This document shows, one piece after another, positions 1,070 through 63,279 of a DNA stretch of 64,000 nt (within the stretch, counting starts at the first letter, position 1; each line of letters starts with the position of its first letter). Made by a program: the position numbers and the translations under genes. The notes under the pieces are model-generated. The model ran no database searches. It was not told where the DNA came from and worked only from the letters and a program-made list of their open reading frames with translations. The DNA is from Branchiostoma floridae (lineage: Eukaryota; Chordata; Leptocardii; Amphioxiformes; Branchiostomatidae), in NCBI RefSeq assembly GCF_000003815.2, contig NC_049984.1, forward strand, positions 18,688,194 through 18,752,193, written 5' to 3'.

Positions 1070-4000
1070 CGTAAAAGGACCTAGATGTACAGGATCCTCT
1101 GTTCTACTGGTCAAAAATTCTGTTCTGATTCTGTTAAATTTACCCTAGGCTACCTACAAAATGGCCATACCACTACTGAGAGTCACTAGATCAAGTTAGT
1201 ACAATATGCATATGAAATCCATTGCTTCTTTACTTTCTTGATGTTCCTATAATATGGCCAAATTTGGTACTTCATCCCATTGGAAAAGATGTACTGTAAA
1301 TGCAGAAACTGTCGCGGTGGTTTAATGTCTGTGGTGTTTTCATGTTTGACATTTTTCCATGGCAGTAAGAGACTACAGTGCATGGTGCTACCGCGAACTT
1401 AAAACCTCCGCAAAAATTTCTTTTTCCCGCTACCGTGAAATTAAATCCCTGCAAACCTAAATGCATTTACAGTATATTATCTTTGGCAGGCCTGACTGAG
1501 AATCTGTGCTTGCATATGTGTGCTGGTGTTTATGTGTTTGTGTGCACAGCTTAACAGCTACAAACAAAACACATAAAACAGTTATATTTCTCTTCAGATA
1601 GAAAGACACCTGAAGAGGCTCTGTTCCAGTCTTGTCTGCCTCTCACCTGTTCCAGCTGCCCGAGCCGCTCCTTCAGCTGGGCCATCTCAGCTGTCTCCGT
1701 TTTCTGCGTGGCCTGGCCGAGTTCTACGGTTCTCACGCGCTGCGCGAAGTTCAGACTGGCCAACGTTTCTGCGACATTCTTCTCGACTGGGGCAACCTGG
1801 ACAACCATAAGCGTCTTGCTGTCTCCACCTGTGTGTTTTAGAGAGAAACAAACATAGTTCATGCAGACATTCATTTTCAAAACATATGTGAAAATAAAGA
1901 TACATCGATTTAGTAAAACTTGTGTCCAGTCACATTTGTTGTATGATTATGATGGTTGGACAATTCCAATAGATTGTTCCAGACAGGAAGTGCTGATTGG
2001 ACAAGCACATTTGCTACCCCACTAGTAGTAGTGGTAGTGAGATTTTTCTATGAGTGCACCCCCCTCCCCACAAAAGTTCTCACTGATTGCATTGCACTGA
2101 TGTTTTTGTTGATGTTTTCCCCCGGTTCAGTGCCAATTACTGTAAATGCAGAAATGTTTGCAAGGGTTTAATGTTCGCGGTTGCCACTTCACTGGCAGTA
2201 CATATTAAGGAGACTACTGTAACAGTGCACGGTGCTTCTGCAAACTTACAACCACCGCAAAAGTCCTTTTCCACACTACCGCAAAATTAAAACCCCGCGA
2301 ACTTAAATGCATTTTTGTGCAGTACCCACCTAGTGACTCCTGTAGCAGGTAGGTGAGTTTGGAGTTCCTGTAGGGCACGTGAGGCTGTTTGCTGCGCAGG
2401 GAGTGGATGACGTCACCCAGGGCAGACAGCGACTTGTTGATGTTCTGTGCCTCCTTTAGACGGTCGCCTGCCGCCTGAGACTTGTGGACACGTTCTGAAC
2501 CAGCCAGATCCACCAGGTTCAGCTTACCTAAAAATTGAGCATTCAACATTGATTTTTTAATAAAAAAAACTTTCAGAAACCTCAGGCAGAACTTTTTAAC
2601 ATCAGAAATGCTGCAGATTTAGGTCCTTTGCTATGCCAAAAACAGCTGGAATCCATTGTACCTCTTATCAAATATTACAACTTACCATTTAGTTGAATAC
2701 TCAGGATTTCATTCCCTTTGCCAGAAGGTTATGTTTTGATTGAGAGATAATTCTGAACCAGAAGCTTGCTTTGGAAAATTGTCTGCACTTGTTTGATACA
2801 TGTTTTCCTTAGAAGTCAATACAACACAAAGATAGACAAGCAGGACATAAAGGCAGGATACACGAATGATTCAATAAGAATAATATGTTGTATATTGGGA
2901 GTGAGCTTAGCAATAACATGGCACACAACAAATGAAATGTAGTAAGAGAATGCCTGTACCAATTACTTTAGCTCAGCAAAAACATGGCACACAACAAATG
3001 AAATGCAGTAGAAGAATGCCCATACCAATGATTTTGGCCCCTGTAGTTATATTAGTGCCCTCCACTGTCACAATGAGCAGTGCGTGTGAGCGTGAGCTGT
3101 GTTCATTCATGTTGGTACAAGCCGTGGCCCTGTTGTTGATGGCCACCTGGAACACATCGTTTACATCATCCAGACAGTCCACCTGTGTGTAGGTCAGCCC
3201 GGGGACGTGCAGGCCACCCTCGTTGTGAAGCTTGATGTCCAGCTTTTCCGTGGGGTCACTTCCCAAAAGGTCCCTGGGAAATCAAAGGGCAAAGGACTCA
3301 AGTTTTCACAGGATGTGACATAGCCAAATGATCTGCTTTCAGAAAGAAACAACCACAGCAAACATACCGGACCATCTCATTGTTGATTCCAAGCATATAC
3401 AGATGAGAAACTTTCTCTGAAAGAATTTTCACTTCTGTTATCATAAATTTTAGTTTCTGGGATATATGACTTTGAAGATTTTGACATCAATGTCTTTTAA
3501 GACAAAGAGTAACCAACTATGTAGCTGTTACAGAAACAACTACAGCACACACATACCTGACACACATAAGATTTTGATGAGTTTGATTTTAAAGATTTTG
3601 AAGATCAATGTCTTTTAAGATACAAGGTGACCAACTACATAGCTGTTACAGAAACAACTACAGCACACATACCTGACCATCTCTTTGTAGATTCTAAACA
3701 TATACAGATGATAAAGAATATTCATTTCTGTCATAACATCTACAATTTCTGGGATATATGAATTTAAAGATTTTGACATCAATGTCTTTAAAGGCAAAGG
3801 GTGACCAACTATGTACTTGTTACAGAAACAACTACAGCCCACATACCTGACCATCTCGTTATAGATCTCAATAACATTGACAGTTATTGAGTAGCTCCAA
3901 TCCTTGTTGCCTTCCTCGACGATCTGGAAAAGCTCACCAAGGGCGCGCTGGTTGATACCACGGCTAGATGGTGGACCCTGTAATTAACAGCATTATTTTA

Positions 4001-20214: not shown

Positions 20215-20660
20215 ATCAGAATTTTGGCACGTGCGCGCATTGCATGCCGGGTGTTTGATCCAAAACGCATGCGCCGGTGTGCATTCCGCGGGGTCTGTTC
20301 ACTGCTTTTCCGCTTCCGATATGTTTCCGCACATTCCAAGTTAGACCACGTAGTCCCCATCTATCACGTCCTGTCCCGGCGGCACCGTGGCCTGTCAACC
20401 CCTGTCCCGGGACCACACGTGCACAGTCCGCCCGCCCGCGTCCCGTACAACACGTCACATTCCAAACATTCGGCGGGGATGTGTGAAAAGCGGCTCCGGT
20501 TTGCATCATGTCGCTGGAATGCAGCCCAGATCCCTCCGCCGTAACCCGCCATTTTGGAGCAGGTCGTGAGATGGCGTTGTGAAAAGTTTCTGGGAAATTT
20601 CGGAGGAACTTTGAGTGACTTGCACCGGATTTTCTGGGATTGTCGCGAATTCCGATCATC
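20215..20660 (+). promoter_or_regulatory. CpG-rich promoter and 5' UTR of the LIM gene
   Basis: GC- and CpG-rich stretch unlike the AT-rich surroundings, with an NRF1-like GCATGCGCC (about 20268) and a TGCATGCCGGG-type initiator region. It leads into the start codon at 20661. No TATA box is visible. The exact start of transcription cannot be read. Confidence 0.5.
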
Positions 20661-43000: not shown

Positions 43001-46000
43001 CAGGCATGGTACAGCAGATGCAGTCAGTCTGCTCCGACTGTAACGGAGAAGGTGAGTTCCAGGATCGGCTCAGCAGATACATGTAGAATTGGAAGGAGAT
43101 ACTGTAAATGCATTTAAGTTCGCGGGGATTTAATTTCGCGGTAGTGGGGAAAATGACTTTTCGCGGTGGTTTTAATTTCACGGCAATAGCATAGACTGCA
43201 GTCTAATACCATAATAGAAAAATGTTTGCTGTGGTTTTAAGTTTGCGGTGAAGTGGTCACTGCGAAAACCGCGAACATTAATCCACCGCGAACATTTCTG
43301 CATTTACAGTAACAGAAAATGAGACAAGCTTATAGATACCGTGTGGTGAGCTATTGGATACTCAGTGGTCGAGCAGGTTTTAAAGAGGTTGGTGTTAATG
43401 GAGTTTAGGTTTGCAGTAAATGACATGTTTGAAGTCTTTACATATACAGTTACTGTGTGCTGAAGAAAGTGGGTGGCAGTGGCGATGATGATCATTTTTG
43501 TATGAAAATGATGAAAATATTGTCATTTTGGGAAAATCAGAGCCCCAGCTTTTTGTCACCTACAAGTTGGAAGTGCAGTCATTGATTTTGTCAGTTAAAA
43601 TTTAGAAAGCGGTTTTTGTGTTGCTACTGTGTCGTCTTGCTTTGTAGTTCTCAGTCAAGTTCCAGCTAACAATGTAGTAGTCACAAAGATTAGAAGTAAT
43701 GCACACTATCTCCACATGTTCTTCTATTAGTTTACAAATAGCAAATCTTGTTAGTGGCAAGTGTTTCATCTATTATTATACACATTATTACCTCCAGGAG
43801 AGATGATCAACGCTCGTGACCGCTGCACCGCCTGTCAGGGCAAGAAGGTTGTGAAAGAGAGCAAAATTCTGGAGGTCCACATCGACAAGGGCATGAAGAA
43901 CGGACAACGCATCACCTTCAGGGGGGAGGGCGACCAACAGGTGGGTCACGTCGATAAAGGGTATACATCCAGGTAATAAGATACGCAAAAAGTTACTCAA
44001 GCAACTGGATATGGTTTTGGAAACAGTCAGATGTTTCAGACAACCATCCGTTGTCTTTCGTCAGTGACACTGGAGAGATTTTGTTGGAGACATTTTTTAT
44101 ATCCTAGCTTTGAATTGACTTGCAAAAGAGATCTAGTTGGAGAACAGGTTTATCCTTACTATGAATTAATATGCAAAAAGGGGAGGAAGACAATATTTTA
44201 GTAGTCCAAAGGAAACAAGGGTAAGACAAGTCAAGACCGTGTTGATGCAAATGATTTAATAAGCTCCTGTTGTTTGAATTACAGGTGGGTTATACCACTG
44301 GGCACGGGAGGGGGACTAGCATGCTTTCCTTCACATTTTCTCATTATTCCTAATTCCTATACAAGAACATATAAAGATGTACTGATATTGAACCATATGC
44401 TTTTGTTCCCAAATTTTTAAGTGTGTTAAGATTTAGAATAACAAGTTTTTACTGTCCCCCCCAGCCTGGAGTGGAAGCCGGTGACATCATCTTGGTTTTA
44501 CAAGAGAAGGATCACGACAGATTCCGGCGTGATGGCCCCGACCTCTTCCTCACACACACGGTCGGGCTGACGGAGGCACTCTGTGGCTTCACGCTCAACG
44601 TTAAACACCTAGACGGGAGAAATTTGGCTATTAAATATCCCCCAGGATCTGTGATAGAACCAGGTAAGTGATCCTCAGACTGTACAGTTGTAAAGGATTA
44701 TGTTCTACTTCTGTAAAAATTTGGATGATCTTCACTTCCAACTGTACATGACCTTATGTACAATTCAAAATAAAGCACTTACCAACAAGCTTTCGATCAG
44801 CACTCTGATTCTTCTCAAGTTGAAATGACCCAAAGCCTAAGTCACGCATCCAGAACGGAAGTGTGACATCAGCAAGGGGTCAAAGGTGCTTGGAAGTCTG
44901 TTTCGGCCCTCGTCCCGGTGGAGGGAAGGTTGGTGGTCTCTGATGTAAATGACCTCTTTCACTCCCCTGTGAAAGTAATCCTGTTCGGAATCCAGTATTT
45001 TCACCTTGTATCCAATATCTTCCTTTGACCCTTTGCTGATGTCACACGTCCGGTCTGGATGTGAGACATTGCATTTTGGGTCATTTCAACTTGATAAGGA
45101 TTAGAGGACTGATAGAAAGCTTGTTGATAAGTGCTTTATTTTATGTACAGATATAAAGTTCCTCACACAAGTTTGTGTCCAATTGTTAACGTTTGTTGTG
45201 ATGTTGTTCCAGGTTGTATCCGGGGGGTCGTCGGCGAGGGAATGCCAATCTATAGGAACCCATTCGAGAAGGGAAACCTGTACATAAAGTTCGACATCAA
45301 ATTTCCAGAGAATAATTTTGTTGATGAAGCTAAAATGAAGGTAAGTGACCGTAGGCATTTAATGATGTACGTCCCCATTTCTCTGGGTTGGAGATAGCTG
45401 TCTACTATTCATACCATAAAAAATCAAGTTCTGAATTTGTCCAAGTTTTTTAATGGGATTGATTTCACCTTCATATTTGCAAGCTGAAGAGATTCTTCTG
45501 TAAGGTGTCCTTTTGAAGTTCATGATCCCAGCTACTTTAAAACAATGTCCTTTTCCATCTTCAAAATCTAGGGATCTATCATCTAGTTAGTGCACTACGC
45601 TAAAATTTGTGACCACCACGCTAAAAAGAGGACCACTACGCTAATTTTCAACTAGTGTTGAACAACTTCCATCAATCATACTTGTTGAACAATGTCTAAT
45701 CAAATACGAAAAATGATAATATGCCACTCAGAATATCACAAGTACATGTGATGTTAACAAAGTTAAATCCCCTCACGGGTACCTTAGTATCATGCCAAAT
45801 TTTTACTCTACATTTTCAAAATCTCACCAATGGAAGGGCCAAGACCCCCTTCCACACCATTGCCATTACGCTAAAATAAAATCCTGGCTAGAACCTTGAA
45901 ATCATTGTTGTCTTTCCCCCCAGACCCTGGAGGGGTTGCTGCCGCCCCGCCCCACCATGCCCCACCCCGCGGGGGATGTGGAGGAAGTAGATCTCATGGA

Positions 46001-46109
46001 GTACGAGTCCACCAGGGGAGCGCCCGGCGCCAACAGCCGGGAAGCCTACGATTCCTCGGACGATGAGGATGGACCGAGGGGCGCAAACGTTCAGTGTGCA
46101 CATCAGTAG
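40043..46109 (+). CDS. DNAJA2: DnaJ (Hsp40) co-chaperone, subfamily A member 2
   Basis: Type I J-protein that stimulates Hsp70 ATP hydrolysis and delivers clients. Exons: 40043-40111, 41051-41110, 42005-42116, 42293-42413, 42573-42653, 42918-43051, 43798-43940, 44465-44663, 45213-45340, 45924-46109; phases agree throughout. 410 residues against 412 in human DNAJA2. Order: J domain (1-70, HPDK at about 33), Gly/Phe region with [17 protein letters not shown], then a zinc region with four CxxCxG-type motifs ([32 protein letters not shown]), the substrate-binding domains and an acidic tail. The C-terminal CAHQ is a CaaX box for farnesylation, as in DNAJA1/A2. [20 protein letters not shown] and PPGSVIEPG point to A2 rather than A1 or A4. 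Intron 1 is GC-AG. A second copy of the last exon lies at 51567-51752. Confidence 0.95.
41427..41820. mobile_element. MITE with CAGGGTTCTCCCCAGA termini
   Basis: Inverted ends CAGGGTTCTCCCCAGA and TCTGGGGAGAACCCTG with TACGT on both flanks (41422-41426, 41821-41825). The interior repeats TATAGTGGAG. It lies in DNAJA2 intron 2 and is hAT-like by its ends. Confidence 0.8.
43100..43311. mobile_element. MITE with TACTGTAAATGC termini, copy 3
   Basis: TACTGTAAATGCATTTAAG to CTGCATTTACAGTA, with GCGGTGGTTTTAA and CCACCGCGAAC inside. It lies in the DNAJA2 intron after 43051. It is the cleanest copy in the window. Confidence 0.8.
44766..45145. mobile_element. Foldback element in a DNAJA2 intron
   Basis: Left arm AAAATAAAGCACTTACCAAC, then TTGAAATGACCCAAAG and GTGTGACATCAGCAAGGGTC pair with right-arm GACCCTTTGCTGATGTCACA, TTTTGGGTCATTTCAA and GATAAGTGCTTTATTTT. 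Loop near 44890-45000. Confidence 0.75.
45570..45900. repeat. Possible decayed repeat with ACGCTAAAA motifs
   Basis: CTACGCTAAAATTTG, CACGCTAAAAAGAGG, CTACGCTAATTTTC and, at the far end, TTACGCTAAAATAAAATCC. Termini are not clear, so the type is unknown. It ends right where the duplicated block begins (45904). Confidence 0.4.
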
Positions 46110-49100
46110 CAACGTTGTCATGGCAACACAGCTTCTGTACCAGCATGTACAATGTACTTATAGAGGCACACCCTGATGTTAGAAAAGTGGGGAGGGGGGC
46201 ATTGTTACTATTTAGGCCACATAAACCTGATTTTGTGGAGGATAGTCTGCACACATCAATTTTATCCCATTCCTTAAAAAAGAATTGTCCCTTTGACATA
46301 TGGGCAGTGAGCATGTTCAGAAGCCCTTCATGCAACAATCACAGTGAGAAACACAGTCAAACCTGTACCAGTGTCCAGTGACCACCTTTGCATAAGGATC
46401 AACTGTCTATTTTGGCTACTCTTTGGTGGTCCTTTAGAGTGGCCACAGGTTGCCACACAGATTTGACTATATTTGTTTATTGTCTTGAACTATCTAAGCA
46501 TATGTTAGACCTTAGAAAACACATTTCCCCCTACACAAATTTTATCCATAAAATCTATCTTATGAGGCCTAGGTAACACTAACAGTCCATGCTGCACATA
46601 CATGTACATGTACACATATGCTAGTCAGTCTGCATCATAGCTACAGTACAGTCATAATGACAGGTTTAGATAGCCAGGTATCCAGCAGTATCATAGCTCC
46701 AGAGTCTCTTCTGTCCTCTACGCAAATACGTAGAGGAAAGAAGAGACTAGGGAGCTATGATACGGCTGGATACCAGGCTAAGTTTTAGACCCTCACTTGG
46801 GAGATTACTACTAGTAAACTGAAAGCTGCTTATATAGTTCTGGGGTTGTAAATGCTGGCAATTAATCAGATGCATAGACTAGTATATTGTGGGTAAATAT
46901 TTCTGATTTGCCTAATGTATGAGTACACATTGACCATGTACAGTTGTTAAATGAGAAATACTAGTAGGTATCTGTGTAGAACAGCTCAGCAGGCAATGCA
47001 AAACACTTCAATGGAGCGAGTGAAATGTTCATGTTATTTTGTCTTGAAATAGTCCCATTTTCGTGTACAGTTCACCACAGTAGTCACACCATAGGCCACG
47101 CAAATACAACAACTCGGTCGTCAGCGGAGCTTTGTCACAAATTGGAACACATCAGGGATGATTTTAAGCCATGTTTAGTTGCCATGACAAATGGTGATTA
47201 AAGAAAACACTTATTTTTACCATGGTACGTCATCATAAACTAGTAATACACAAAATTAGCCACACAGCATTGCCTAGCTATATAGACCTTACAGACATTT
47301 AATATGTACCTGTGAAATTCAGTTTTATGTAGTTTGTCAAAGTTGAAGTGGCCTTATAGATTATGTTAATATGCCATGTCTTGACTTAATGTATGCATAT
47401 TTGGTGTGTTAGGCACAGTCTGCTTTCATAGACCATATATACATGTCCCATAAGAAATAGGTGTTTCATAACTTAACAAGAATATGTATGTAGTACATTG
47501 TGTTCCCATGGTAACCGTTCCCAAGGCGATGTGTTGCTATATGGAAACCAATGTGTTGCAATTACCCCACTGGATGGCTCATTTTTGAGGAGCATTATGC
47601 TTATATTATCTTCTTTTCTCTTGATTCTTTGCACTTATAGTTTGGATTTTTGTAAGTAGAAATTGATAAAGCATTATTGATATCACCACTGTTTCCTTCT
47701 TCTTTCATGCACACCAGTACTTTACATTATTAAGATGTATGAGAAAATTCCAGCTTGCAGTACATGTACCCGGATCTCATCATAAACTTTGTTCAAGTCA
47801 GTTGGGCTTCATGTTAATGCAAACAACGCTATTGCATTCAGTGTTTGTTTTCTGTGGCTGTGAGGACCAGGAACATGTAACAGTATTGGAGTGGCCCATG
47901 GACACTTCACTGCAGACATAGGAACATACATGTAATGTCTTATCAGTGTACAATGTATGAGTTAAGTAGTAGCATTGCATGATCTTATACTGATAATTCC
48001 AGGAGAAAGATATTACGTTGATGTTATTGTTTTTGTTATGATAGAGTGTAGATAAGTTTAACTTAACATCGTTGTTTTTCACAGAAAAATACAGAGGCAT
48101 TCAGCCCCTCTTGAAATGTACAAAATGAAAGCTCCATTACTTTTGTAGGTTTTAAAGTTGTTTCCTTTTTCCGTGGTAAACTAATGTCTTGGTGTATTGT
48201 CAGACTATTACACTTACAGTATGTATAATATGTACAATGGAACATTATAGTTGCTTCTTGTGGCTGCCACTAAAAGAATTCCCCCAAGAATGGACTTCAT
48301 CTCTGAATAAATAAAAGTTGTTTTACAACCGAAATAAAGCCTACAAATACCATAAGTCAAATTTTCAGATAGCTCACATGTTGAATCACGAAATACACTA
48401 ACTTGTTTGCAAACAGACTTACATACTTAAAGATTCATCTTTTGTGGTATCCCTTATTCTCAGTGTCTCAGGATATAATGTGACCAGTACAAGGTGCTGA
48501 AGCCATTTCCTTGAAAGTTCACAAGTATTAATTTGATTCAAAGTCATGATTCAAAATCTACCGATCTATGATGGTTATAAAGATGTTGGATTTAGAACAC
48601 CAGTTGGCTTCATGTATTAGGTACAGTAGGGTTGATGAAAAATACAAGAAGTCATAATGATACATATGAAAAAAAAACTTTGGTCCATGGTGACGAGATG
48701 TATGTGACATTGATCATACTTTTGCATAAGTCCATATCGACGTGTCAAATTATTATAATATATATATATATAGGGATCCTAACCAAAGCAAGAAGACCTG
48801 CAAATACCAAGGCCCTGCCCCTTGTCATTATTAAGACCATGTTTATTAAAAGTGAAATTATGGGCTCCTGTCTGGTTTGGGGAAGGTGGCTTGTACATAG
48901 CGAGTGCTTGATGTGTACATGTAGCATTTATGTGGGAAAATTGTTCAAAATGCTGGTAGAATTACAAGTGCTTTACACAGTTAACTGTAGTTCTGTTTTG
49001 ACTGTTCATGGATATGTATTGTTCTGTACCTGAGATTGTCCTGAAGGAAAGCTAATGCCAGAAATTCACATTTTGTTGCTTTCTGATGTTTTAGATCTAT

Positions 49101-49215
49101 TACATACAATAGCCCAGTATAAGAACATCTGTGTCTAAAATATTGGCTATATGTCCTCTGTTAGATTTATGGTTTATTGCTATGAAATAAACTTTGAACA
49201 GATAATTTTTGGGAT
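46110..49215 (+). other. DNAJA2 3' UTR and downstream sequence (first copy)
   Basis: Non-coding. Poly(A) signals AATAAA at 48306-48311 and 48310-48315, and at 49186-49191. Holds a decayed MITE (46352-46471) and an imperfect palindrome at 46674-46780 (ATCCAGCAGTATCATAGCTC paired with GAGCTATGATACGGCTGGAT). Repeated at 51753-54858. Confidence 0.6.
46352..46471. mobile_element. MITE with ACAGTCAAACCTGT termini, decayed copy
   Basis: Starts ACAGTCAAACCTGTACCAG and ends AGATTTGACTAT, with GGTCCTTTAGAGTGGCCAC inside. It lies in the DNAJA2 3' UTR. The duplicated block carries the same copy at 51995-52114. Confidence 0.6.
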
Positions 49216-49939
49216 TTTTGTATCAAGTTTGTGTAAAGAATCAACATTCATATTTATATTACCAGAGGCACAAGTTTAGCTGATGGCTAGAAGATTATTG
49301 GTGTAAAAAACTTTTTTTTTATTTCCTTATTATTTGCCAAATAAACAATGCATTGATTCTCCCCTTTGTCATATGTGATACTATATGTGATTCCTATTGG
49401 ATTGAATTTTAAAAATGTACTGAAAAAGTTCAACCTTAACTGTATACTGGTCGAGCGTCGTGTAAATCACTTGTTTTGAGACTGACTCGTGACGTCATGT
49501 CGTGACATTACTACTCTGAACAAGACACCTGTTACTGTCGCGTGATACAAGTTTATACAACAAGCCTGTCCAGCTTTGGCTGCTGAGTCTGAGATCCGCT
49601 GCTGTTAAAAAAGTAGAATGCGCTTCATCTTTGTTTAGTATAATACAATATAGTGTGGGATAAATAGGTCTCAAATTGTCCTTACGCATTATGAACTTAC
49701 AGCCTGCCTGAGCAGTGCCTTACAAAATCGGAAAATACGCAAAAAGTTACTTTGGCAAAGCAACACGAGTTAACATTTAATCCATGGCGAAAACACCATT
49801 TTGCTGTTACACGTGCTTGCGTCATGCCGTGGTCTATTTTTAGCCCTCAACGTCATGCGTCAGGAGCGTATACTCTGCAGGCGTGCAGACGGCAGCATTT
49901 TGGTAGGGAGAATTTGACTGAGGACGTTCCCTGTACTGT

Positions 49940-50850
49940 GCACTACTCTCCAAGCAGAGGTTGGTGGGAAAAATCGTGACCTATTCCTATCATTTTTTTT
50001 TTCAGACCGCCTTCCGGTACTACCGCGTTAGACAAGCCGCGAAAAATTACCCCTGTCCATGCTGTGATGCAGATAAACGGGTCGGGAGGCTTTTCCGTGT
50101 GTAAGACTTGGCCCATAACGGCTAACAAGGGGGGGGGGTCGGGGGGGGCAGGGCGGGTTGCGGGGGGGGGGGGGGGGGGGGAATCCGGGAAAAAGGGAAG
50201 GGACACGAAAAGAAGGGAAAACAGGGGAAAAAGGAGAAAAGGAAGAAAACGGGGAAAAGGGGGACAGAAGGGAAAAAAAGGAAAAGGGGACGAAAAAGCC
50301 GTCAAAAAAAAAAAAAAAGCAAAAACATAAAATGGCAAGAAAAACTAAAAAAACAAGGTGAGAAAACTCAAAAAAAAAAAATAAAGCGCAAAAAAAGAAA
50401 CAAAACTCAAATAAACTAAAAAAAAAGCAAATGAAAAAAAACACACTGAGATTGCAAAATCTAAAAAAAAAAAAAAAAAAAACCCAAAATTAAAACGAAA
50501 AAAAATAAAGCGTAAAAGGAAAAAAAAGCAAAGGAATTAAAAAGACTAAAATGGAAACCAAAAAAAAAAAATAAAGCAAAAAAATCAGAGGAAATAACAA
50601 ATTAAAAACAAAAAGAGAAACAGAAGAAAAAAGAAAAAAAATAAAAAAAAACAAAAATTAAGACCAAATCAAAAGGAGACTAAATAAAAAAAAAAAAAAC
50701 AAAAAAAAAAAAAAAAAAAACCGATAAATAACATATATAAGACAACTTAATAGAAAGACCGGGTTGCCAACATAGTTATAAAAAAAAAACGACAGGAATA
50801 GCTCACGATTTTTCCCACCAACCTTCTGCTTGGAGAGTACTGTGCACTCC
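49940..50850. repeat. Hairpin with purine-rich low-complexity filling
   Basis: Arms of about 65 bases are inverted copies: CTCTCCAAGCAGAGGTTGG at 49946 and CCAACCTTCTGCTTGGAGAG near 50819, each with GGGAAAAATCGTGA. Between them, about 50125-50790 is runs of G, then GGGAAAA-type repeats, then A-runs with few T or C. This looks like a collapsed or mis-called tract. The second unit has the 100-N gap at the same place. Confidence 0.8.
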
Positions 50851-51006
50851 CACACAGCGTTCTCGCATATATGGGTGTCCTACCCAGCTTGCCCCGAAAG
50901 GGGAAATACAACTTTGATCGGAAGGCGGGAACTTAGAAGGTAAGTCTGGTAATGTCGGAACTTGTTGTCAGAAGGATTTACGGGTGGGGGATGAAGTCAG
51001 TTTTAA

Positions 51007-51534
51007 CCCTCAAACCACCGTATGGGGTCAAAACTGACCCCAGACGTATATTAATATGTGCCATTATGACATTTCTGGTTGAAGACAAATTTCCTTCTAT
51101 GAGTTTATTTGTATATAGGTCCTATAACTTCTCACACGTTTTTACCGAGATTAGCTTATTGTTGATTAAGTTATCATAGAAAGTTTATGTATGGTCCAGT
51201 GGGGTCAAAACTGACCCCATCATTTTTTTAAACAAACTTCTGGAACCCACGACTAAAGCAATTATCGCATGATCACGAAATTTTCAGAGAATGATGTTCA
51301 TGTGCAACGAAATTATGGTAACAACTTTTGTGTCATTATCATGTTATATGACGATGCCATGACGTAATTTAGCTTAAATTGGCCGCCATCTTGGAAATTT
51401 GACTGATGACGTCATCAAATTAGCATAAATTATGACTATTGAATCATGAAATTTACGTTAATTTCATAATATGTCATGAACAAGTGTTGATTGCCAAGAA
51501 AACCTTAAAACTTGAATGTTTAAGCCAAATTTAG
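51007..51534. mobile_element. piggyBac-like MITE, truncated by the duplication junction
   Basis: Left end TTAA-CCCTCAAACCACCGTA, as in the full copy at 55782-56743. The sequence stops after CCAAATTTAG, where unit 2 begins. Confidence 0.8.
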
Positions 51535-51566
51535 TTTTTTTTCAAAATTGTTGTCTTTCCCCCCAG

Positions 51567-51752
51567 ACCCTGGAGGGGTTGCTGCCGCCCCGCCCCACCA
51601 TGCCCCACCCCGCGGGGGATGTGGAGGAAGTAGATCTCATGGAGTACGAGTCCACCAGGGGAGCGCCCGGCGCCAACAGCCGGGAAGCCTACGATTCCTC
51701 GGACGATGAGGATGGACCGAGGGGCGCAAACGTTCAGTGTGCACATCAGTAG
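51567..51752 (+). pseudogene. DNAJA2: Second copy of the last DNAJA2 exon
   Basis: Encodes the same 61 residues as 45924-46109, [12 protein letters not shown] to the CAHQ end, with stop TAG, and keeps the CCCCCCAG acceptor. It lacks the other nine exons, so on its own it is not a gene. Since acceptor and phase are intact it could serve as an alternative last exon giving the same protein. If the duplication is an assembly artefact it does not exist. Confidence 0.85.
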
Positions 51753-54700
51753 CAACGTTGTCATGGCAACACAGCTTCTGTACCAGCATGTACAATGTAC
51801 TTATAGAGGCACACCCTGATGTTAGAAAAGTGGGGAGGGGGGCATTGTTACTATTTAGGCCACATAAACCTGATTTTGTGGAGGATAGTCTGCACACATC
51901 AATTTTATCCCATTCCTTAAAAAAGAATTGTCCCTTTGACATATGGGCAGTGAGCATGTTCAGAAGCCCTTCATGCAACAATCACAGTGAGAAACACAGT
52001 CAAACCTGTACCAGTGTCCAGTGACCACCTTTGCATAAGGATCAACTGTCTATTTTGGCTACTCTTTGGTGGTCCTTTAGAGTGGCCACAGGTTGCCACA
52101 CAGATTTGACTATATTTGTTTATTGTCTTGAACTATCTAAGCATATGTTAGACCTTAGAAAACACATTTCCCCCTACACAAATTTTATCCATAAAATCTA
52201 TCTTATGAGGCCTAGGTAACACTAACAGTCCATGCTGCACATACATGTACATGTACACATATGCTAGTCAGTCTGCATCATAGCTACAGTACAGTCATAA
52301 TGACAGGTTTAGATAGCCAGGTATCCAGCAGTATCATAGCTCCAGAGTCTCTTCTGTCCTCTACGCAAATACGTAGAGGAAAGAAGAGACTAGGGAGCTA
52401 TGATACGGCTGGATACCAGGCTAAGTTTTAGACCCTCACTTGGGAGATTACTACTAGTAAACTGAAAGCTGCTTATATAGTTCTGGGGTTGTAAATGCTG
52501 GCAATTAATCAGATGCATAGACTAGTATATTGTGGGTAAATATTTCTGATTTGCCTAATGTATGAGTACACATTGACCATGTACAGTTGTTAAATGAGAA
52601 ATACTAGTAGGTATCTGTGTAGAACAGCTCAGCAGGCAATGCAAAACACTTCAATGGAGCGAGTGAAATGTTCATGTTATTTTGTCTTGAAATAGTCCCA
52701 TTTTCGTGTACAGTTCACCACAGTAGTCACACCATAGGCCACGCAAATACAACAACTCGGTCGTCAGCGGAGCTTTGTCACAAATTGGAACACATCAGGG
52801 ATGATTTTAAGCCATGTTTAGTTGCCATGACAAATGGTGATTAAAGAAAACACTTATTTTTACCATGGTACGTCATCATAAACTAGTAATACACAAAATT
52901 AGCCACACAGCATTGCCTAGCTATATAGACCTTACAGACATTTAATATGTACCTGTGAAATTCAGTTTTATGTAGTTTGTCAAAGTTGAAGTGGCCTTAT
53001 AGATTATGTTAATATGCCATGTCTTGACTTAATGTATGCATATTTGGTGTGTTAGGCACAGTCTGCTTTCATAGACCATATATACATGTCCCATAAGAAA
53101 TAGGTGTTTCATAACTTAACAAGAATATGTATGTAGTACATTGTGTTCCCATGGTAACCGTTCCCAAGGCGATGTGTTGCTATATGGAAACCAATGTGTT
53201 GCAATTACCCCACTGGATGGCTCATTTTTGAGGAGCATTATGCTTATATTATCTTCTTTTCTCTTGATTCTTTGCACTTATAGTTTGGATTTTTGTAAGT
53301 AGAAATTGATAAAGCATTATTGATATCACCACTGTTTCCTTCTTCTTTCATGCACACCAGTACTTTACATTATTAAGATGTATGAGAAAATTCCAGCTTG
53401 CAGTACATGTACCCGGATCTCATCATAAACTTTGTTCAAGTCAGTTGGGCTTCATGTTAATGCAAACAACGCTATTGCATTCAGTGTTTGTTTTCTGTGG
53501 CTGTGAGGACCAGGAACATGTAACAGTATTGGAGTGGCCCATGGACACTTCACTGCAGACATAGGAACATACATGTAATGTCTTATCAGTGTACAATGTA
53601 TGAGTTAAGTAGTAGCATTGCATGATCTTATACTGATAATTCCAGGAGAAAGATATTACGTTGATGTTATTGTTTTTGTTATGATAGAGTGTAGATAAGT
53701 TTAACTTAACATCGTTGTTTTTCACAGAAAAATACAGAGGCATTCAGCCCCTCTTGAAATGTACAAAATGAAAGCTCCATTACTTTTGTAGGTTTTAAAG
53801 TTGTTTCCTTTTTCCGTGGTAAACTAATGTCTTGGTGTATTGTCAGACTATTACACTTACAGTATGTATAATATGTACAATGGAACATTATAGTTGCTTC
53901 TTGTGGCTGCCACTAAAAGAATTCCCCCAAGAATGGACTTCATCTCTGAATAAATAAAAGTTGTTTTACAACCGAAATAAAGCCTACAAATACCATAAGT
54001 CAAATTTTCAGATAGCTCACATGTTGAATCACGAAATACACTAACTTGTTTGCAAACAGACTTACATACTTAAAGATTCATCTTTTGTGGTATCCCTTAT
54101 TCTCAGTGTCTCAGGATATAATGTGACCAGTACAAGGTGCTGAAGCCATTTCCTTGAAAGTTCACAAGTATTAATTTGATTCAAAGTCATGATTCAAAAT
54201 CTACCGATCTATGATGGTTATAAAGATGTTGGATTTAGAACACCAGTTGGCTTCATGTATTAGGTACAGTAGGGTTGATGAAAAATACAAGAAGTCATAA
54301 TGATACATATGAAAAAAAAACTTTGGTCCATGGTGACGAGATGTATGTGACATTGATCATACTTTTGCATAAGTCCATATCGACGTGTCAAATTATTATA
54401 ATATATATATATATAGGGATCCTAACCAAAGCAAGAAGACCTGCAAATACCAAGGCCCTGCCCCTTGTCATTATTAAGACCATGTTTATTAAAAGTGAAA
54501 TTATGGGCTCCTGTCTGGTTTGGGGAAGGTGGCTTGTACATAGCGAGTGCTTGATGTGTACATGTAGCATTTATGTGGGAAAATTGTTCAAAATGCTGGT
54601 AGAATTACAAGTGCTTTACACAGTTAACTGTAGTTCTGTTTTGACTGTTCATGGATATGTATTGTTCTGTACCTGAGATTGTCCTGAAGGAAAGCTAATG

Positions 54701-54858
54701 CCAGAAATTCACATTTTGTTGCTTTCTGATGTTTTAGATCTATTACATACAATAGCCCAGTATAAGAACATCTGTGTCTAAAATATTGGCTATATGTCCT
54801 CTGTTAGATTTATGGTTTATTGCTATGAAATAAACTTTGAACAGATAATTTTTGGGAT
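51753..54858 (+). repeat. Second copy of the DNAJA2 3' UTR block
   Basis: Matches 46110-49215 at an offset of 5643, with the same poly(A) signals (for example AATAAA at 54829-54834). No additional gene. Confidence 0.85.
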
Positions 54859-55492
54859 TTTTGTATCAAGTTTGTGTAAAGAATCAACATTCATATTTAT
54901 ATTACCAGAGGCACAAGTTTAGCTGATGGCTAGAAGATTATTGGTGTAAAAAACTTTTTTTTTATTTCCTTATTATTTGCCAAATAAACAATGCATTGAT
55001 TCTCCCCTTTGTCATATGTGATACTATATGTGATTCCTATTGGATTGAATTTTAAAAATGTACTGAAAAAGTTCAACCTTAACTGTATACTGGTCGAGCG
55101 TCGTGTAAATCACTTGTTTTGAGACTGACTCGTGACGTCATGTCGTGACATTACTACTCTGAACAAGACACCTGTTACTGTCGCGTGATACAAGTTTATA
55201 CAACAAGCCTGTCCAGCTTTGGCTGCTGAGTCTGAGATCCGCTGCTGTTAAAAAAGTAGAATGCGCTTCATCTTTGTTTAGTATAATACAATATAGTGTG
55301 GGATAAATAGGTCTCAAATTGTCCTTGCGCATTATGAATTTACAGCCTGCCTGAGCAGTGCCTTACAAAATCGGAAAATACGCAAAAAGTTACTTTGGCA
55401 AAGCAACACGAGTTAACATTTAATCCATGGCGAAAACACCATTTTGCTGTTACACGTGCTTGCGTCATGCCGTGGTCTATTTTTAGCCCTCA

Positions 55493-55592
55493 NNNNNNNN
55501 NNNNNNNNNNNNNNNNNNNNNNNNNNNNNNNNNNNNNNNNNNNNNNNNNNNNNNNNNNNNNNNNNNNNNNNNNNNNNNNNNNNNNNNNNNNN
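55493..55592. other. Assembly gap (100 N)
   Basis: Exactly 100 N, a conventional placeholder. By comparison with unit 1, about 970 bases (49850-50817), including the hairpin filling, should be here. Translations through it are meaningless. Confidence 0.99.
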
Positions 55593-55781
55593 ACCAACCT
55601 CTGCTTGGAGAGTACTGTGCACTCCCACACAGCGTTCTCGCATATATGGGTGTCCTACCCAGCTTGCCCCGAAAGGGGAAATACAACTTTGATCGGAAGG
55701 CGGGAACTTAGAAGGTAAGTCTGGTAATGTCGGAACTTGTTGTCAGAAGGATTTACGGGTGGGGGATGAAGTCAGTTTTAA

Positions 55782-56743
55782 CCCTCAAACCACCGTATGG
55801 GGTCAAAACTGACCCCAGACGTATATTAATATGTGCCATTATGACATTTCTGGTTGAAGACAAATTTCCTTCTATGAGTTTATTTGTATATAGGTCCTAT
55901 AACTTCTCACACGTTTTTACCGAGATTAGCTTATTGTTGATTAAGTTATCATAGAAAGTTTATGTATGGTCCAGTGGGGTCAAAACTGACCCCATCATTT
56001 TTTTAAACAAACTTCTGGAACCCACGACTAAAGCAATTATCGCATGATCACGAAATTTTCAGAGAATGATGTTCATGTGCAACGAAATTATGGTAACAAC
56101 TTTTGTGTCATTATCATGTTATATGACGATGCCATGACGTAATTTAGCTTAAATTGGCCGCCATCTTGGAAATTTGACTGATGACGTCATCAAATTAGCA
56201 TAAATTATGACTATTGAATCATGAAATTTACGTTAATTTCATAATATGTCATGAACAAGTGTTGATTGCCAAGAAAACCTTAAAACTTGAATGTTTAAGC
56301 CAAATTTAGAAAATTGCGTAATAAATATGCCCGTCAGAATTCTGTTGCCATGGCAACATGAAAAATGATGAACTTTTTTATTCTCTTGAATTGCTTGCTA
56401 TTAACATTTTTTTTAAAAGGGACCAAGTTTGGTGGCCCTAGCATAAGCTATTCAGGGGCTAAGTGACTTTGAAGTTGGTGCGGGCATAGAAAAACCTTAC
56501 CCGGTCAGAATAGCGTTAGTGCAAAACGTGGTCCTCATGGTCTTTTGCATAAATTATGATAATGAGCTAGAATTATTCTCACCTAATCATGTCAAACTGT
56601 CCCACATAGATTTATGAAGCTATACATATATACAAATCACAAAAAGAGTCACCAAAAAAACTGTATTTGTACAAAACGTTATGGGGTCAGTTTTGACCCC
56701 ATACGGTAATCTACGTCACAAAAATGCTACGGTGGTTTGAGGG
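55782..56743. mobile_element. piggyBac-like MITE, complete copy
   Basis: CCCTCAAACCACCGTA and TACGGTGGTTTGAGGG as inverted ends, flanked by TTAA on both sides (55778-55781, 56744-56747), the piggyBac target. 962 bases with no transposase. Palindromes GGGGTCAAAACTGACCCC lie inside both ends and once in the interior. Confidence 0.85.
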
Positions 56744-56946: not shown

Positions 56947-57439
56947 GGGTACGAGAAAGGATGGTCGTCTTATGATTATGTACCCAGTATTTACCTTTAA
57001 GGCGAGGCCTGCCTCGTGTTTATATCTCTCTGCGCCTGACGTCGCAGTTTTTCTACCGACATCCGAGGGTGAACAAATATCGTACAAGGCAATGATTTAA
57101 CTTTGTTATCAAGTAGTTCTCACGTATTAGTTTGATTCAAAGTCACCATCCAAAGTCTATCCATATATGATGGTTATAGAGAGGACCGGGATTTAGAACT
57201 CCAGTTGGCTTCATGTTTTGAGTACGGTTACTTGTTGGAGGGTTCATGATACATAACGCTTTGTCAACCTGGCGTGGGGACAGCAAGGTATGTTTTTAAT
57301 AGAATCTGTATCATAGAACGCCCCTGATAAACATCATAGAGTTCCCACGTCCATGGTACTGTCAGTGGCCAAATTTAGATGTCATTGTCATCACTAAAGA
57401 AGTGTACACCTTGACGCACTGCGCAAGCGCGTCCGTCAC

Positions 57440-57561
57440 GAGACAGGTAGTTCAGTTCGCGGAAGTGCTCACACGGTGCGGTTGGCGGAAACAAGTTCCG
57501 CCAAATTTGTGCTAATTTCCCCGCAAAACAGGAAACATCGCTACTAGCGGGAATTTCGAAG
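57440..57561 (+). other. Candidate 5' UTR exon of the Death-domain kinase gene
   Basis: A GC-richer stretch ending in a donor (CGAAG|GTAAGATAAG at 57561), about 1.7 kb before the acceptor at 59300. No ATG-initiated frame continues through it. The promoter and start are inferred from base composition. Confidence 0.35.
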
Positions 57562-58194
57562 GTAAGATAAGATATCTGTCGGCCGAATATTAGGGTAGGA
57601 CGACCGTGTTTGTCCATTTTTGATCCATAATTGCTGGGCTTCGCCACGGATTTTGTCGTAAAAAGCTACTTTCACTTTCGATGTTCTTCGCGCCTTTCCA
57701 CAAGGATATTAAAGAATGCACAAATTTAAGGCAGGGTTTCTTTATAATTAACGTGTTGTATTATAGTAGCTGTATTACCAGAAAAGTACAGCATGTTATA
57801 AATTTGTTAGTCTGATCGCCGTTTGTGCGTACTAGGAAGTCACTTGCACGGTATTACACAATATGATGCAACCGTCTCCTGACTTGTCTTTTGCAGTAGA
57901 TTCAACAGGACACAACACTGTCTGGAGTTTATCAACTAAGTCCAAGAAGTTTCTAGTTCTACGTATATACGTAATTGCGATAAATGAGCCCGAGTTCACG
58001 TTTCCCCAGCCTCAATATTTCGAGGCTATAAACTGACCAAACCTTGGACTTTGATCATAACCTTTACCACAAACCCGTCTTGTTTTGAAACGGTTTCACT
58101 TTTAATCTACACAGTTAACACATTTAGTATTTTCATCTACCTGGGTTACTGTCATGTAGTAGTATTAAACTGGATGCTATCGCTCAGCAGGTAA

Positions 58195-58460: not shown

Positions 58461-59308
58461 TGGATGGCAGATAGATTTGTGGCCCATTTGGATGTCAGCA
58501 CAAAGTGGTGCTGCCTAACATTTAATATTGGAACTGCAGGGGCATTTTGTCCAAATATTCATATAGTAAGACAATAACTGAAGAGAGGAACAAAGGATTT
58601 CCATCATTTGAGGCATGCAGGTAGCTACTAGTAATAAGCAGGAATGTACACATTTAGACAATCTTATTAACCATCTTCTACCATTATTTGTAACACTTTG
58701 TAAATGGGTCAGTGGGCTGGGGCTAAGAGTTTTGTAGGTTTGGGCCACCTAGTTTGAAACTTTGAAAGAGAATAACTAAAGAAAGGGTTCATGGATGTCA
58801 TAAAGTGGTAGATACAAGTAGTTGGGGTCATGATTTATTTACATCACAAACTTTCACAAGTAATCAGGAAACTTCATAGATCTTCTGCATTTCATGATAA
58901 GACTCTCAAATACCTGACTAGATCATGTAAAAGAAGGTATAATCTGCATTATCGACGAGACAATAATATAATTGCAAAGTGGTAAATGATGGGAATTTCA
59001 TTTTTGGAAGTGAAGTTAAGATGAACATCATTCGACATAAATCATTCAAATCAGGAACTCATTTGCATAATTGATAAGGAAATGCTACATTGAACAATAG
59101 TCTTCTTTGATAACATAATAAATAAATACTTTCATTCTTGTGTTTTTGGGGTAGAGAAGATGATCAACTGATAAAATCCACGTAAATAAAGACTTTTTGT
59201 TTTTGTGTTATAAATGAGAGAAATTTATCACTTGAAAAAGATCATTTGGCAAAAGTATGATGTCCTGGAACTCTAGTTCTTTATTGTCGTATGTCCACAG
59301 AAACAGCC

Positions 59309-62300
59309 ATGTTGTCGGATGTGTCCCTACGTCGGCTGGCAGGTGAGCTGGGGAATGAGTGGCGTAGTCTGGGTATCTTTCTGGGCCTGTCAAAGGCGCA
59401 GGTGGACCAATGTGACATCAACCATCCCAGGAACATAAAGGAAGCCATAGTCGACATGCTGGTCCTGTGGCAGCAGCTAACATCAGACAGAGGCCCAGAA
59501 GCACAGGTAAACAACATGACTGGTAATATAAAGTGAGAAATGTTTATATGGGGTGATCAATAAGTTTGCATCCTTGTACAGCAATAAGTTGTGCAACTCA
59601 AAGTTTGGGGCACAATTCAAATCATTGTCACATGTACTTAGCAGGCAGCATTCAGTAACATTTCAACTTCAAGTGAGAGAGAATGTCTTCATAGATCTCA
59701 CGGCATGTAGAACACGACCAACACAGCTCTGATCGCAGTTCACCCTTGTTTTGCTCCTCACGTACCTACTGATTTTCAAAATCATGTTGACTGGAAAGTT
59801 AATGCCGCAGTGATTTGAAATTTGATGGGTACTGATAAAAGACTTGACTTTAATGACACATATTGAGACCATGCCAAATTTACTGTAATTCACTTTGTCT
59901 TCTCGGTACCAAACTTTCACGGTCTGAGAAAATTTAACTTGTTCTTGGAACTAAATGTTCACTGTCGCAGCAAGTGCACATAAAAAAGTCTGTGAAAAAA
60001 TTATTTGTTATCAGTAATGATAAGTTCACGTTACAGTCGTCACCGGTGAAGATGTACATCTTAAATAACACCAAAAAAAAAAACAGCCTGAGGAGTTTAA
60101 TGGCACGTTTTATACAATGATTCCCTTCCTTTGACTTGTTACTAATTTTCTGAATAAAAGGCATTGTTTTAGACTGAGATCATGTGTAGTAAAATCTGTA
60201 TCATTTTTTTCTCGGGACTTAATATTTTTTTTTAAATGAAACAAAAAATGGACAGGCATAGCCAAGAAATTTGATAAAATTGGTGTGTCCTAATTATGCA
60301 CCAAATTTGAGTTGTTGACCTTATATCTGTGAGACAGCAATTGATCACCTCTCATATGGCAGGACATGATGCTTAGAGTCAAATTGAATATTTTCTCTAG
60401 GTGGCAGACTTGGTCAAGGCTTTGAGGGAAATCAGTCGTCTGGACCTGGCTGAGAAAGTTGAGGATGGAGACTTTATAGGTATGGCAAATACCACATCAC
60501 TTGGATTTTTTTTGCAACATTGATACCAATAGTCTACCGTTATCCTAACTTAGGAATTTGTCAGTAGCAAAATGTCACTAACATAACGATTGAATTTTGC
60601 AGAGTACACTGATCAGGCGGCCGGAAACAGCGAACGCCCTGATCAGGTGGCTGGAAACAGAGTAGTAGCCAGTGGCCGCAATAATGTCATCATTCAAGCA
60701 GGAAACAACGCAAAAATCAATGTCAACGTACCTGCACCTATCACAGGTATGCTTCCAAAATTACTCTTCTTTGCATACCCAATTTTGACAATTCAAGAGA
60801 CAGTTAGCAAATATCTGTATAGGCAGCAGGTTTAAAGTTCCTTCTTAGTTGTGTCGGATGGTGCCCAAGTTTTCATTATAAGCGTAAGTCCTTGTGGAAA
60901 ATTGAAACCTTCACACTCTGTGTAGGCACACATGTTCATACCGGTAGCTCAGTCAGTCATATAATTCATTACATGTAACGGTAATAATTGCTGAATGTAT
61001 ACTTAGAAGTGTTTTTCTTGTCAAGGTAAACAGCTGCTGTTTACAATGATTATTATGATATCTGTCATACTAATTGACTTTATTGACCAAATTGAATTTA
61101 TTCAGTACTTTTTAAGCCTAAAGCAAAGTTTAGAAAATGAAATGTTGTCCATAAAAGTAGTGCACCTTTCTGGTTCTGATGATTATGAATGCTGACCAGG
61201 TGCTTCAGAACCTGTGACCCCTGGTTACACCACCAGTACCCCTGGCTCTACCAGTCTTCCAGACTTGTCCAGAACACAACCACCACACCCCATACCACGC
61301 ACCATCTCTAAGGACAACTCACAACACAGGTGTGCTTATTTCCCATATCAAACCTGGTGTCAGGTACTACAACTTTGCATTTGTCAGCAATTATAATAAT
61401 CGTTCGTGGCATGAATTTAAGAAAAGGTGTGAGGTCGAAGCATCTTATGTTTAATGAGAAATTCTTATTCTCTGCCATAGCATGGAGGCTGTACTGAATG
61501 ACTGTATCAGACAACTAAAGCAAATGGGATTTTCTGATGAGGGGTCCTGCAGACGAGAAGTTCAAAATCTCATCTCAACTGGTAAGTACATCATGTATGC
61601 AATATTGGTAGTGTATACCATCATCTTATTATAGAACACAGAATATACTAGACAAGTCTATTCCTGTCTTCATGCTTATATGTAACTGGTGGATGTCCAT
61701 ACAAAGGTCAAGTAACATTTTCATGATACAGAGTATTCGTACTTGATAATTCATGTCTTGGAGCTTTCTTGGTATATCATACTCTTGTTCTGTTCAGTGC
61801 AACACATTAGAGCTGTCCTCATGCAGTTATACCTGTTATGCAGTTATAGCTGTTCATTTATGTTTCACATACATAAGGAGTTTCTTGCAAATAAGAACTA
61901 TAACTTATAAGATAGCGCTCCACAAAAGTTCAAGGCTAACGAATGTTCATTTCCCTTTATCTGTTGCTTAGGCTTAAGAACCACAGAAGACATAGTCGAG
62001 ACATTTGTGGAAAGGAATCAGGCACAACGTACCCCTGTAGAACAACCACAGGAGCAGTCAATGTCATCAGCTACCAGTAGTACATTTGATAGCCTTGATG
62101 GAAGAACCACTGGAGGAAGGGGAGAAACTCCAACACATGGTTCCCCTCCTCCTTCCACTGATGATGTAAGCCTGGGTTATGTGTCTTTACAACTGCAAAG
62201 TGGTGGCAACATACAGGACAATGAGGCATCGAACTGGCCTGAGACAGGACCAGCTGCAAGAGGGGAGCAAACCACTGGAAGGGAGTCTGCTGAAGAAACA

Positions 62301-63279
62301 GTGCCAAAAGCTCCACCTGAAGAGGCAAATGCAAACATCGAAGCTCAGCGGACACCAGATCGCCAGCGTCCCACAGAAACCCAGCAGCAAGTCAACGAGC
62401 CCGGTGCTGATGGGTATCAGCCAGTGTATGACAAGAAGCGGTGTCTGTACATCTTCAGCAGGGAAGATATTGAGAAGATGACCAATAATTTCACATCACC
62501 AAAGATAGCAGATGGGGCATTTGGACCAGTCTATTATCTAGGTAATAAATACCATACGGATATAGATAACTGTGCAATTTGCAGGTTGATGAAACTTTTT
62601 ACCACTAGTAATACAACTTGACAGTACAGTCCATTTTAAACTACGGCGTTGGAGTTCAATCTTAACTCCCCAAAATCTAAAGTGGTCAGCAGTGACGGAG
62701 ACTTTGTTTTTTTACTTGATGTTTATTACCTTGATGTGAGCCAGGTGTGCTGATATAGAGAACTGCTGCATGATTGTGAGCCTGGGACATGACATTTTGT
62801 CAGTGATGATTTCTTAATTCTATTGGTATTATGTCGCATTTTCCTACAGAGAAGTTTCCTTATGAAGGTCCCCTGAAAGGTCGACAAATGGCTGTGAAGG
62901 TGAACAATTCAGATGAGCAAGGAAGGAAGGAGTTCATGCAGGTAAGCTGCAAACACATAACATTTACCCTATATGTCACACTTAGGCCTGTTTGCAAACA
63001 TGGTTTTATGTTTTAAACTTAGTACATCTTAGGTTTGGCATGCACACTGTAAGTTTCAATGCACAAAGGGACTTCTTTTTCACTTTATAAAACAGTGAGG
63101 CTTATGAAGCAAAACTTTGTAATTTCTACATTGTACCACATTACAAGGTCAGGCAATTTATTATCTTGCATTTTATGGTTGCATTTCAAGGATAAATTGG
63201 ATAATTTTCAGGAGCTGGCAATGGCTGGATCCGGACATCCCCATCTCCTGCCTCTGTTTGGGATATGTGAAGATGAGAG
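59309..63279 (+). CDS. Death domain, RHIM-like motif, UBA-like, IRAK-like kinase (5' part)
   Basis: Exons: 59309-59506 (exon from 59301), 60401-60479, 60603-60746, 61200-61329, 61481-61581, 61972-62541, 62850-62941, 63212-63279; all GT-AG with matching phases, about 460 residues seen. Residues 1-90: Death domain (LSDVSLRRLAGELGNEWRSL, LGLSKAQVDQ). Residues 121-133: VIIQAGNNAKINV, RHIM-like. Residues 185-222: IRQLKQMGFS to STGLRTTEDIVETFVE, like the UBA of cIAP/XIAP. Residues 225-370: Pro/Ser/Thr/Gln-rich linker. From about 377: FSREDIEKMTNNF, the glycine loop DGAFGPVY (about 399-405), AVK with the ATP lysine near 424, and QELAMAGSGHPHLLPLFGIC with the helix-C Glu near 439. The N-lobe resembles IRAK/Pelle. 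The catalytic loop and DFG lie beyond the window. Likely an immune or death signalling kinase. ATG 59309 is preceded by GCC, a fair Kozak; an in-frame ATG at 59291 falls in the intron. Confidence 0.82.
59881..60060. mobile_element. MITE with TACTGTAATTCAC termini, truncated copy 2
   Basis: TACTGTAATTCACTTTGTCT at left, then ACTTTCACGGTCTGAGAAAA; matches 5739-5950 but lacks a clear right end. It lies in the first coding intron of the kinase gene. Confidence 0.6.

Follow-up and report, generated by a model that had tools for sequence, protein, structure and literature searches.

The 3′ end of a 64,000-nucleotide stretch of the Branchiostoma floridae genome (C6:18688194-18752193, hereafter the window) carries the first eight exons of a predicted plus-strand gene that encodes a Death domain and the beginning of a kinase. 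A sequence-only reading of the window had joined these exons by phase and had seen in them Death, RHIM-like, UBA and IRAK-like kinase modules. The eight exons (59291 or 59309 to 63279; Table 1) do join, with GT-AG borders and fitting phases, into an open frame of 466 residues. When the sequence was extended by 30 kb of the same contig, with positions given as continued window coordinates, nine further exons were found (64489-69759, which corresponds to C6:18752682-18757952), and the whole model of 17 exons encodes 1,014 residues and closes with a TGA stop at 69757-69759. All 16 introns are GT-AG, the phase agrees at every junction, and the coding frame contains the final stop only, against 44 and 61 in the other two frames. 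The G+C fraction runs from 0.42 to 0.55 in the 17 exons and from 0.31 to 0.38 in the 16 introns, two ranges that do not overlap. The splice sites were chosen by hand, which biases their scores, while G+C played no part in choosing them; none of 20,000 random draws from all GT or AG sites of the region attained the donor or acceptor means of the model, which, for hand-picked sites, is weak support. The start codon is probably the ATG at 59309, as previously proposed: an acceptor AG at 59299-59300 precedes it, and the stretch CCACAG just upstream can act as acceptor and is shared with a paralogue on C15. A 5′ exon may lie within the CpG-rich interval 57400-57600 (CpG observed/expected ratios of 1.37 and 1.52 in the 150-base bins starting at 57400 and 57550). 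We infer that a single transcript covers the whole gene.

The Death domain, one of the modules named by the sequence-only reading, was recovered by Pfam with an E-value of 3.8e-14 on the window part and of 8.3e-14 in the 1,014-residue product (residues 13-94, above cut-off). The nearest solved Death domains in a PDB search were those of CRADD, RIPK1, PIDD, and FADD. A search of the whole genome (513,431,437 bases in 431 contigs) for Death domains produced 588 candidates, and the best 150, which were scored, all lay over the cut-off; Death is also the most over-represented domain among the dispensable genes described for B. floridae (PMC12373286). A genome search whose query was the N-terminal 466 residues listed 75 rows (81/81 candidates scored), eight of which were the gene itself, 66 the Death region or slightly past it, and one, weak (E 8.8), the linker. 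The closest Death domain in the genome is at C15:4.617-4.622 Mb (58-60% and 74-77% in two exons), where it adjoins canonical caspase exons with a QMCRG site in what is apparently a Death-caspase gene. A phage search with the whole window part gave no match.

The window ends within the kinase, and the part inside it stayed below the Pfam cut-off (E 0.0023 for the 466-residue frame; 1.2e-4 for a fragment). Once the 3′ part was joined, the match reached 5.1e-26 for the domain alone and 9e-25 in the whole protein (residues 402-683, above cut-off). Among the best 60 of 269 PDB rows, plant receptor-like kinases (8.7e-24) and human IRAK4 (6.2e-20) came first, NEK kinases matched more weakly, and no animal RIPK appeared. 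By sequence search alone, with no tree, we therefore assign the kinase to the IRAK/Pelle/receptor-like kinase family, in agreement with the IRAK-like identity that had been suggested. The alignments keep the ATP-binding Lys, the catalytic Asp, the Asn, and the metal-binding Asp of DxG. DFG reads DPG, and HRD reads HCD, which makes this a non-RD kinase, a class that has been linked with innate immunity across kingdoms (PMC8463890).

Between the Death domain and the kinase lies a middle part in which two further modules had been proposed. When the UBA-like segment was scanned in isolation, UBA was its best Pfam match, sub-threshold at E 0.093 and 0.061 (13.1-13.6 bits against a cut-off of 22.4) and confined to positions 3-20 of 37; the unrelated family CPSase_L_D3 nearly equalled it on the same segment (0.098 and 0.12). 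UBA was not listed in the Pfam scans of the 466- and 1,014-residue proteins, nor was a UBA found among solved structures in a PDB search with the segment, and its identity as a UBA is unproven. The segment needs no splicing to be linked to the kinase, as its second half and the kinase start are both within the unbroken exon 6. The other proposed module was a RHIM in exon 3, where VIIQAGNNAKI loosely resembles a RHIM core. Its tetrad, IQAG, falls outside the consensus (V/I)-Q-(V/I/L/C)-G given in PMC9444067. Pfam found no RHIM in the 466- or the 1,014-residue protein, and of the seven places listed by a genome-wide RHIM search (two over the cut-off) none is at this gene. A profile of six lancelet RHIM motifs (C135, C11, and C148; five of the seven listed places were used, C15:17085086 and C10:11276127 were dropped, and the sixth motif was picked by eye) aligned elsewhere in exon 3, off the proposed tetrad, and 82 of 5,000 shuffled exons scored equally well. 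A relaxed RHIM pattern matched once across the six frames of 89 kb and occurred in 52 of 20,000 protein shuffles, a count not used as support, as the pattern was drawn up after the motif had been seen. With Pfam, the whole-genome search, and the lancelet profile all negative, we rejected a RHIM in exon 3, and the amyloid-type assembly attributed to it falls as well. The frames at C135:205710, C11:2599959, and C148:162951 carry two RHIM motifs each (one of those at C135 identified by eye).

The end of the protein, which the sequence-only reading missed because it lies beyond the window, consists of a Cys-rich RING-like module and a protease. Pfam matched Peptidase_C14 at residues 763-957 (1.1e-8 in the whole protein, above cut-off; 2.7e-10 in a caspase fragment with nine extra residues read from an intron). 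The His/Cys dyad reads HSGHG and DSC, and its His and Cys are kept in five of five copies, that is, in this gene and at the four other loci described below. The active site is LDSCM here, LDACH in three of the other copies, and LDACY in one, and not the QACxG given for animal caspases (PMC2575513). The bacterial caspase family NF047832 matched with an E-value of 7.2e-18 (64.8 bits, against a curated cut-off of 140), and two other copies with 1.8e-13 and 6.2e-14; in all three it outscored the Pfam caspase model (2.7e-10, 3.7e-9, and 1.4e-11). A canonical caspase fragment from C15 behaved in the reverse manner (Pfam 1.1e-24, no NF047832 match), this being a short control of 131 residues in two exon pieces. 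By these profile scores, the protease is related to the bacterial EACC1-associated caspases of NF047832, without being a member by the curated rule. EACC1-caspase systems have been described in multicellular bacteria (PMC7159879). In a plasmid search, the caspase domain retrieved three records, the best of which was an unannotated frame of Sinorhizobium meliloti GR4 (7e-10) that aligns to residues 6-247 of 264 and retains SGHG and DxC, while the match on a Rhizobium SL42 plasmid is annotated as a caspase family protein. PADLOC returned one model named caspase (E 0.012), and among GTDB genomes the domain gave 149 pattern stretches, none of them confirmed. Metacaspases are considered absent from animals in PMC5756287, where DxCH is given as their motif and the motif is called an unsafe criterion; according to the same source, cleavage after Arg or Lys is the preference of the non-caspase C14 proteases that had been characterised by 2017.

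Residues 386-1014 were then used as a query against the genome, and the best 70 of 144 candidates were scored, so further copies are possible. Twelve of the 70 rows were the gene itself, 12 fell in four other loci with Cys-rich and caspase exons, and 46 lay within the kinase region, with identities of 22-34% and a best E-value of 4.6e-10. There are thus at least four other zinc-caspase loci, at 25.762, 25.795, and 25.811 Mb of C5 and at 0.405 Mb of C6, whose caspase exons are 57-63% identical to ours. Introns 14 and 15 are in the same place at all four, and intron 16 in at least two; the module was fully assembled at two of these loci, the remaining two being compared through alignments and printed splice letters. 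Nine Cys/His of the Cys-rich module are invariant in five of five members. At every other locus found, the zinc-caspase module forms the C-terminal end of signalling sequence within the same open exon. Upstream of it, CARD (3.3e-9) and Roc (2.5e-6) passed the Pfam cut-off at C5 25.762 Mb, where COR-B (1.2e-4) fell short, and COR-B passed it (3.2e-6) at C5 25.811 Mb; at C5 25.795 Mb and C6 0.405 Mb the same Roc-COR-CARD-type sequence was recognized by eye, and so were ankyrin-like frames further upstream at two of the four. Within the same best 70 candidates, 19 kinase-like rows (31-34% identity) lie along a single contig, C231, in what looks like a tandem kinase cluster.

The explanation that we consider rather probable is that this is one intact lancelet gene, whose product carries a Death domain, a low-complexity linker with a UBA-like segment, an IRAK/Pelle-type non-RD kinase, a RING-like zinc module, and a bacterial/metacaspase-like caspase-fold protease, and would serve as a cytoplasmic innate-immune 'shortcut' protein. 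A MyD88-, FADD- or TRADD-like Death-domain platform would gather several copies, the gathered kinases would phosphorylate one another, and the clustered protease domains would be switched on by proximity; the active protease would then cleave its substrates, with Arg or Lys more probable than Asp as the residue before the cut. The UBA-like segment might in addition bind ubiquitin and the zinc module have E3 activity. The core of the sequence-only reading holds and is partly supported: an order of Death domain, odd middle part, and kinase that is unlike that of IRAK, RIPK1 or the IAPs stands, strengthened by the terminal protease and weakened by an unsupported RHIM and an unproven UBA. With the C-terminal protease, the likely output is no longer the envisaged kinase by itself but kinase plus protease. 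More tentatively, the protein could be an immune signalosome in a single chain, uniting recruitment by Death with a non-RD IRAK-type kinase, a RING-type module, and a metacaspase-like protease that cuts after Arg/Lys and is, although in an animal, of bacterial ancestry; this protease module would have been exchanged between Death-kinase and Roc-COR-CARD backbones.

Several observations weigh against this explanation. For exons 3-8 and the kinase, the genome contains no close relative against which conservation of the full architecture could be judged. Novel domain combinations in lancelets have often proved to be gene-prediction errors (PMC4967905), and an assembly gap of 100 N is located in intron 10, inside the kinase. 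A product lacking the protease is possible, as read-through at the exon 13 donor runs for five codons before it meets a stop. As for the modules, the RING profile zf-C3HC4_3 was very weak (E 0.4 in one of five members and 1.2 in the whole protein), and up to E 10 the Cys-rich module matched only two TRIM RINGs in the PDB, weakly (4.6 and 4.8). Used alone or as a profile, the caspase domain found no caspase in the PDB up to E 10, a GPI transamidase being matched at 0.15, and its bacterial-family score stays below the curated cut-off. Two of the other copies are also irregular: at C5 25.795 Mb, exons 16-17 form a single frame with no intron, and the copy at C6 0.405 Mb, with a frame shift where its caspase exon begins, may be broken or misassembled. 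Judging by its motifs, the kinase may be weak or dead, since DFG is replaced by DPG.

That last point underlies an alternative that we regard as unlikely, in which the protein is a scaffold with an inactive kinase and the protease is its sole enzyme; HCD for HRD would point the same way as DPG, but the catalytic Lys, Asp, and Asn have been retained, as has the DxG Asp, and non-RD kinases can be active. It is improbable that two adjacent genes have been merged, one of them Death-UBA-like-kinase with its end shortly past exon 13 and the other, downstream, zinc-caspase. The stop met on read-through, an AATAAA at 67811 in intron 14, and the frequency of wrongly fused lancelet gene models (PMC4967905) would suit two genes. 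However, intron 13 has just 180 bases, exon 14 is in the correct phase with no Met ahead of its first zinc-type Cys, and the ten AATAAA of the region are scattered over several introns, as expected for AT-rich sequence. We accept the fusion mainly on account of the conserved module, which at each of the other four loci trails other signalling sequence within one open exon. We likewise doubt that the gene makes two isoforms, kinase-only and kinase-protease, by switching between them at intron 13: the in-frame stop comes right after the exon 13 donor, which matches a moderate 6/9 consensus positions, but such a donor is unremarkable where all 16 score 6-8 and six score 6. Finally, a RIPK1-like necrosis factor acting through a RHIM amyloid and ubiquitin sensing, as the sequence-only reading proposed, is very improbable, given that its one attraction, the loosely RHIM-like string of exon 3, failed the Pfam, whole-genome, and lancelet-profile searches and that the kinase is IRAK-type.

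Table 1. Features of the predicted Death-kinase-caspase gene and ordinary neighbours in the window; positions past 64,000 continue the window coordinates.
Feature	Positions	Strand	Remarks
Possible 5′ untranslated exon	57400..57561	+	CpG-rich; 3′ end at a GT donor, left end approximate; inferred from sequence only
Exon 1	59291..59506	+	Death domain, N-terminal part; possible coding start ATG 59309
Exon 2	60401..60479	+	Death domain, C-terminal part; C15 paralogue split at the same residue
Exon 3	60603..60746	+	Linker bearing the motif once read as RHIM (RHIM not confirmed)
Exon 4	61200..61329	+	Pro/Thr/Ser-rich linker
Exon 5	61481..61581	+	UBA-like segment, first half (sub-threshold)
Exon 6	61972..62541	+	UBA-like segment, second half, linker, and kinase start in a single open exon
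Exon 7	62850..62941	+	Kinase N-lobe, including the conserved Lys
Exon 8	63212..63279	+	Kinase N-lobe; window ends within the kinase
Exons 9-17	64489..69759	+	Remaining kinase, Cys-rich RING-like module, caspase domain, stop
Kinesin motor exons	2214..3281	-	
DnaJ C-terminal domain exon	44375..44671	+	

Upstream of the gene, two pieces of 3,946 and 718 bases (99.9% identical) are doubled in the same order at 45904-51534 and 51547-56309, and a gap of 100 N (55493-55592) takes the place of the intervening stretch in the second copy; this is probably an assembly (haplotype) duplication. The window also contains a tandem repeat with a unit of about 42 bases and long open frames on both strands (24315-24729), and a Ser/Pro-rich open frame of 513 residues on the plus strand (20619-22160) with no Pfam match at E 0.001.

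The protein resembles several known systems in part. Like IRAK/Pelle, it has an N-terminal Death domain followed by an IRAK/receptor-like-type kinase, whose lead-in, FSREDIEKMTNNF, aligns to receptor-like kinases; it differs from them in its middle part of about 300 residues with the UBA-like segment, its C-terminal RING-like module and protease, and its HCD and DPG. It shares with RIPK1 the presence of Death and kinase in a single protein, but here Death precedes the kinase, the kinase is nearer IRAK, and the RHIM is unconfirmed, whereas RIPK1 is ordered kinase, RHIM, Death; lancelets are reported to possess their own RIPK1 with that layout (PMC12119088). The succession of UBA-like and RING-like elements, both sub-threshold here, recalls the IAPs (cIAP, XIAP), from which the protein differs in that no BIR domain was among the Pfam matches up to E 10 on the 1,014 residues. 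MALT1 likewise has, in one chain, a Death domain at the N-terminus and a caspase-fold protease that lacks QACxG. Type 1 paracaspases are described as Death, Ig domains, and paracaspase (PMC5978004), whereas the Pfam scan of the 1,014-residue protein gave no Ig domain, the lancelet gene has a kinase, and its protease is related to bacterial EACC1-type caspases. The Roc-COR-CARD-zinc-caspase genes of C5 and C6 have the same zinc-caspase module with matching introns 14 and 15, and differ in an upstream half that is Roc-COR-CARD (by Pfam at two loci and by eye at two) instead of Death-kinase.

Amphioxus is known for domain shuffling of this kind, with hybrid immune genes such as TNFR-caspase, Death-caspase, and Death-NACHT that shorten pathways (PMC2575513), 45 caspases (PMC3196919), and Death-kinase and LRR-Death-kinase genes (PMC9573974), and ours would be akin to them as a pathway-shortening combination. 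A Death-kinase-caspase layout does not appear in the parts of these three papers available to us, including table entries of the last, and no such protein was found in the literature searched, in searches partly aimed elsewhere and with supplementary files and gene annotations outside their scope. Lancelet hybrid immune genes are therefore already known, and the Death-kinase-caspase combination is new among the literature searched. If one transcript spans the gene, one chain would combine recruitment, kinase, and protease domains, which vertebrate Toll/IL-1 and MALT1 signalling divides among separate proteins, and the control of a caspase-fold protease by IRAK-type phosphorylation could be tested directly. 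The protease module is one of a few bacterial-looking C14 enzymes in an animal genome, and as such bears on the origin of the animal cell-death machinery.

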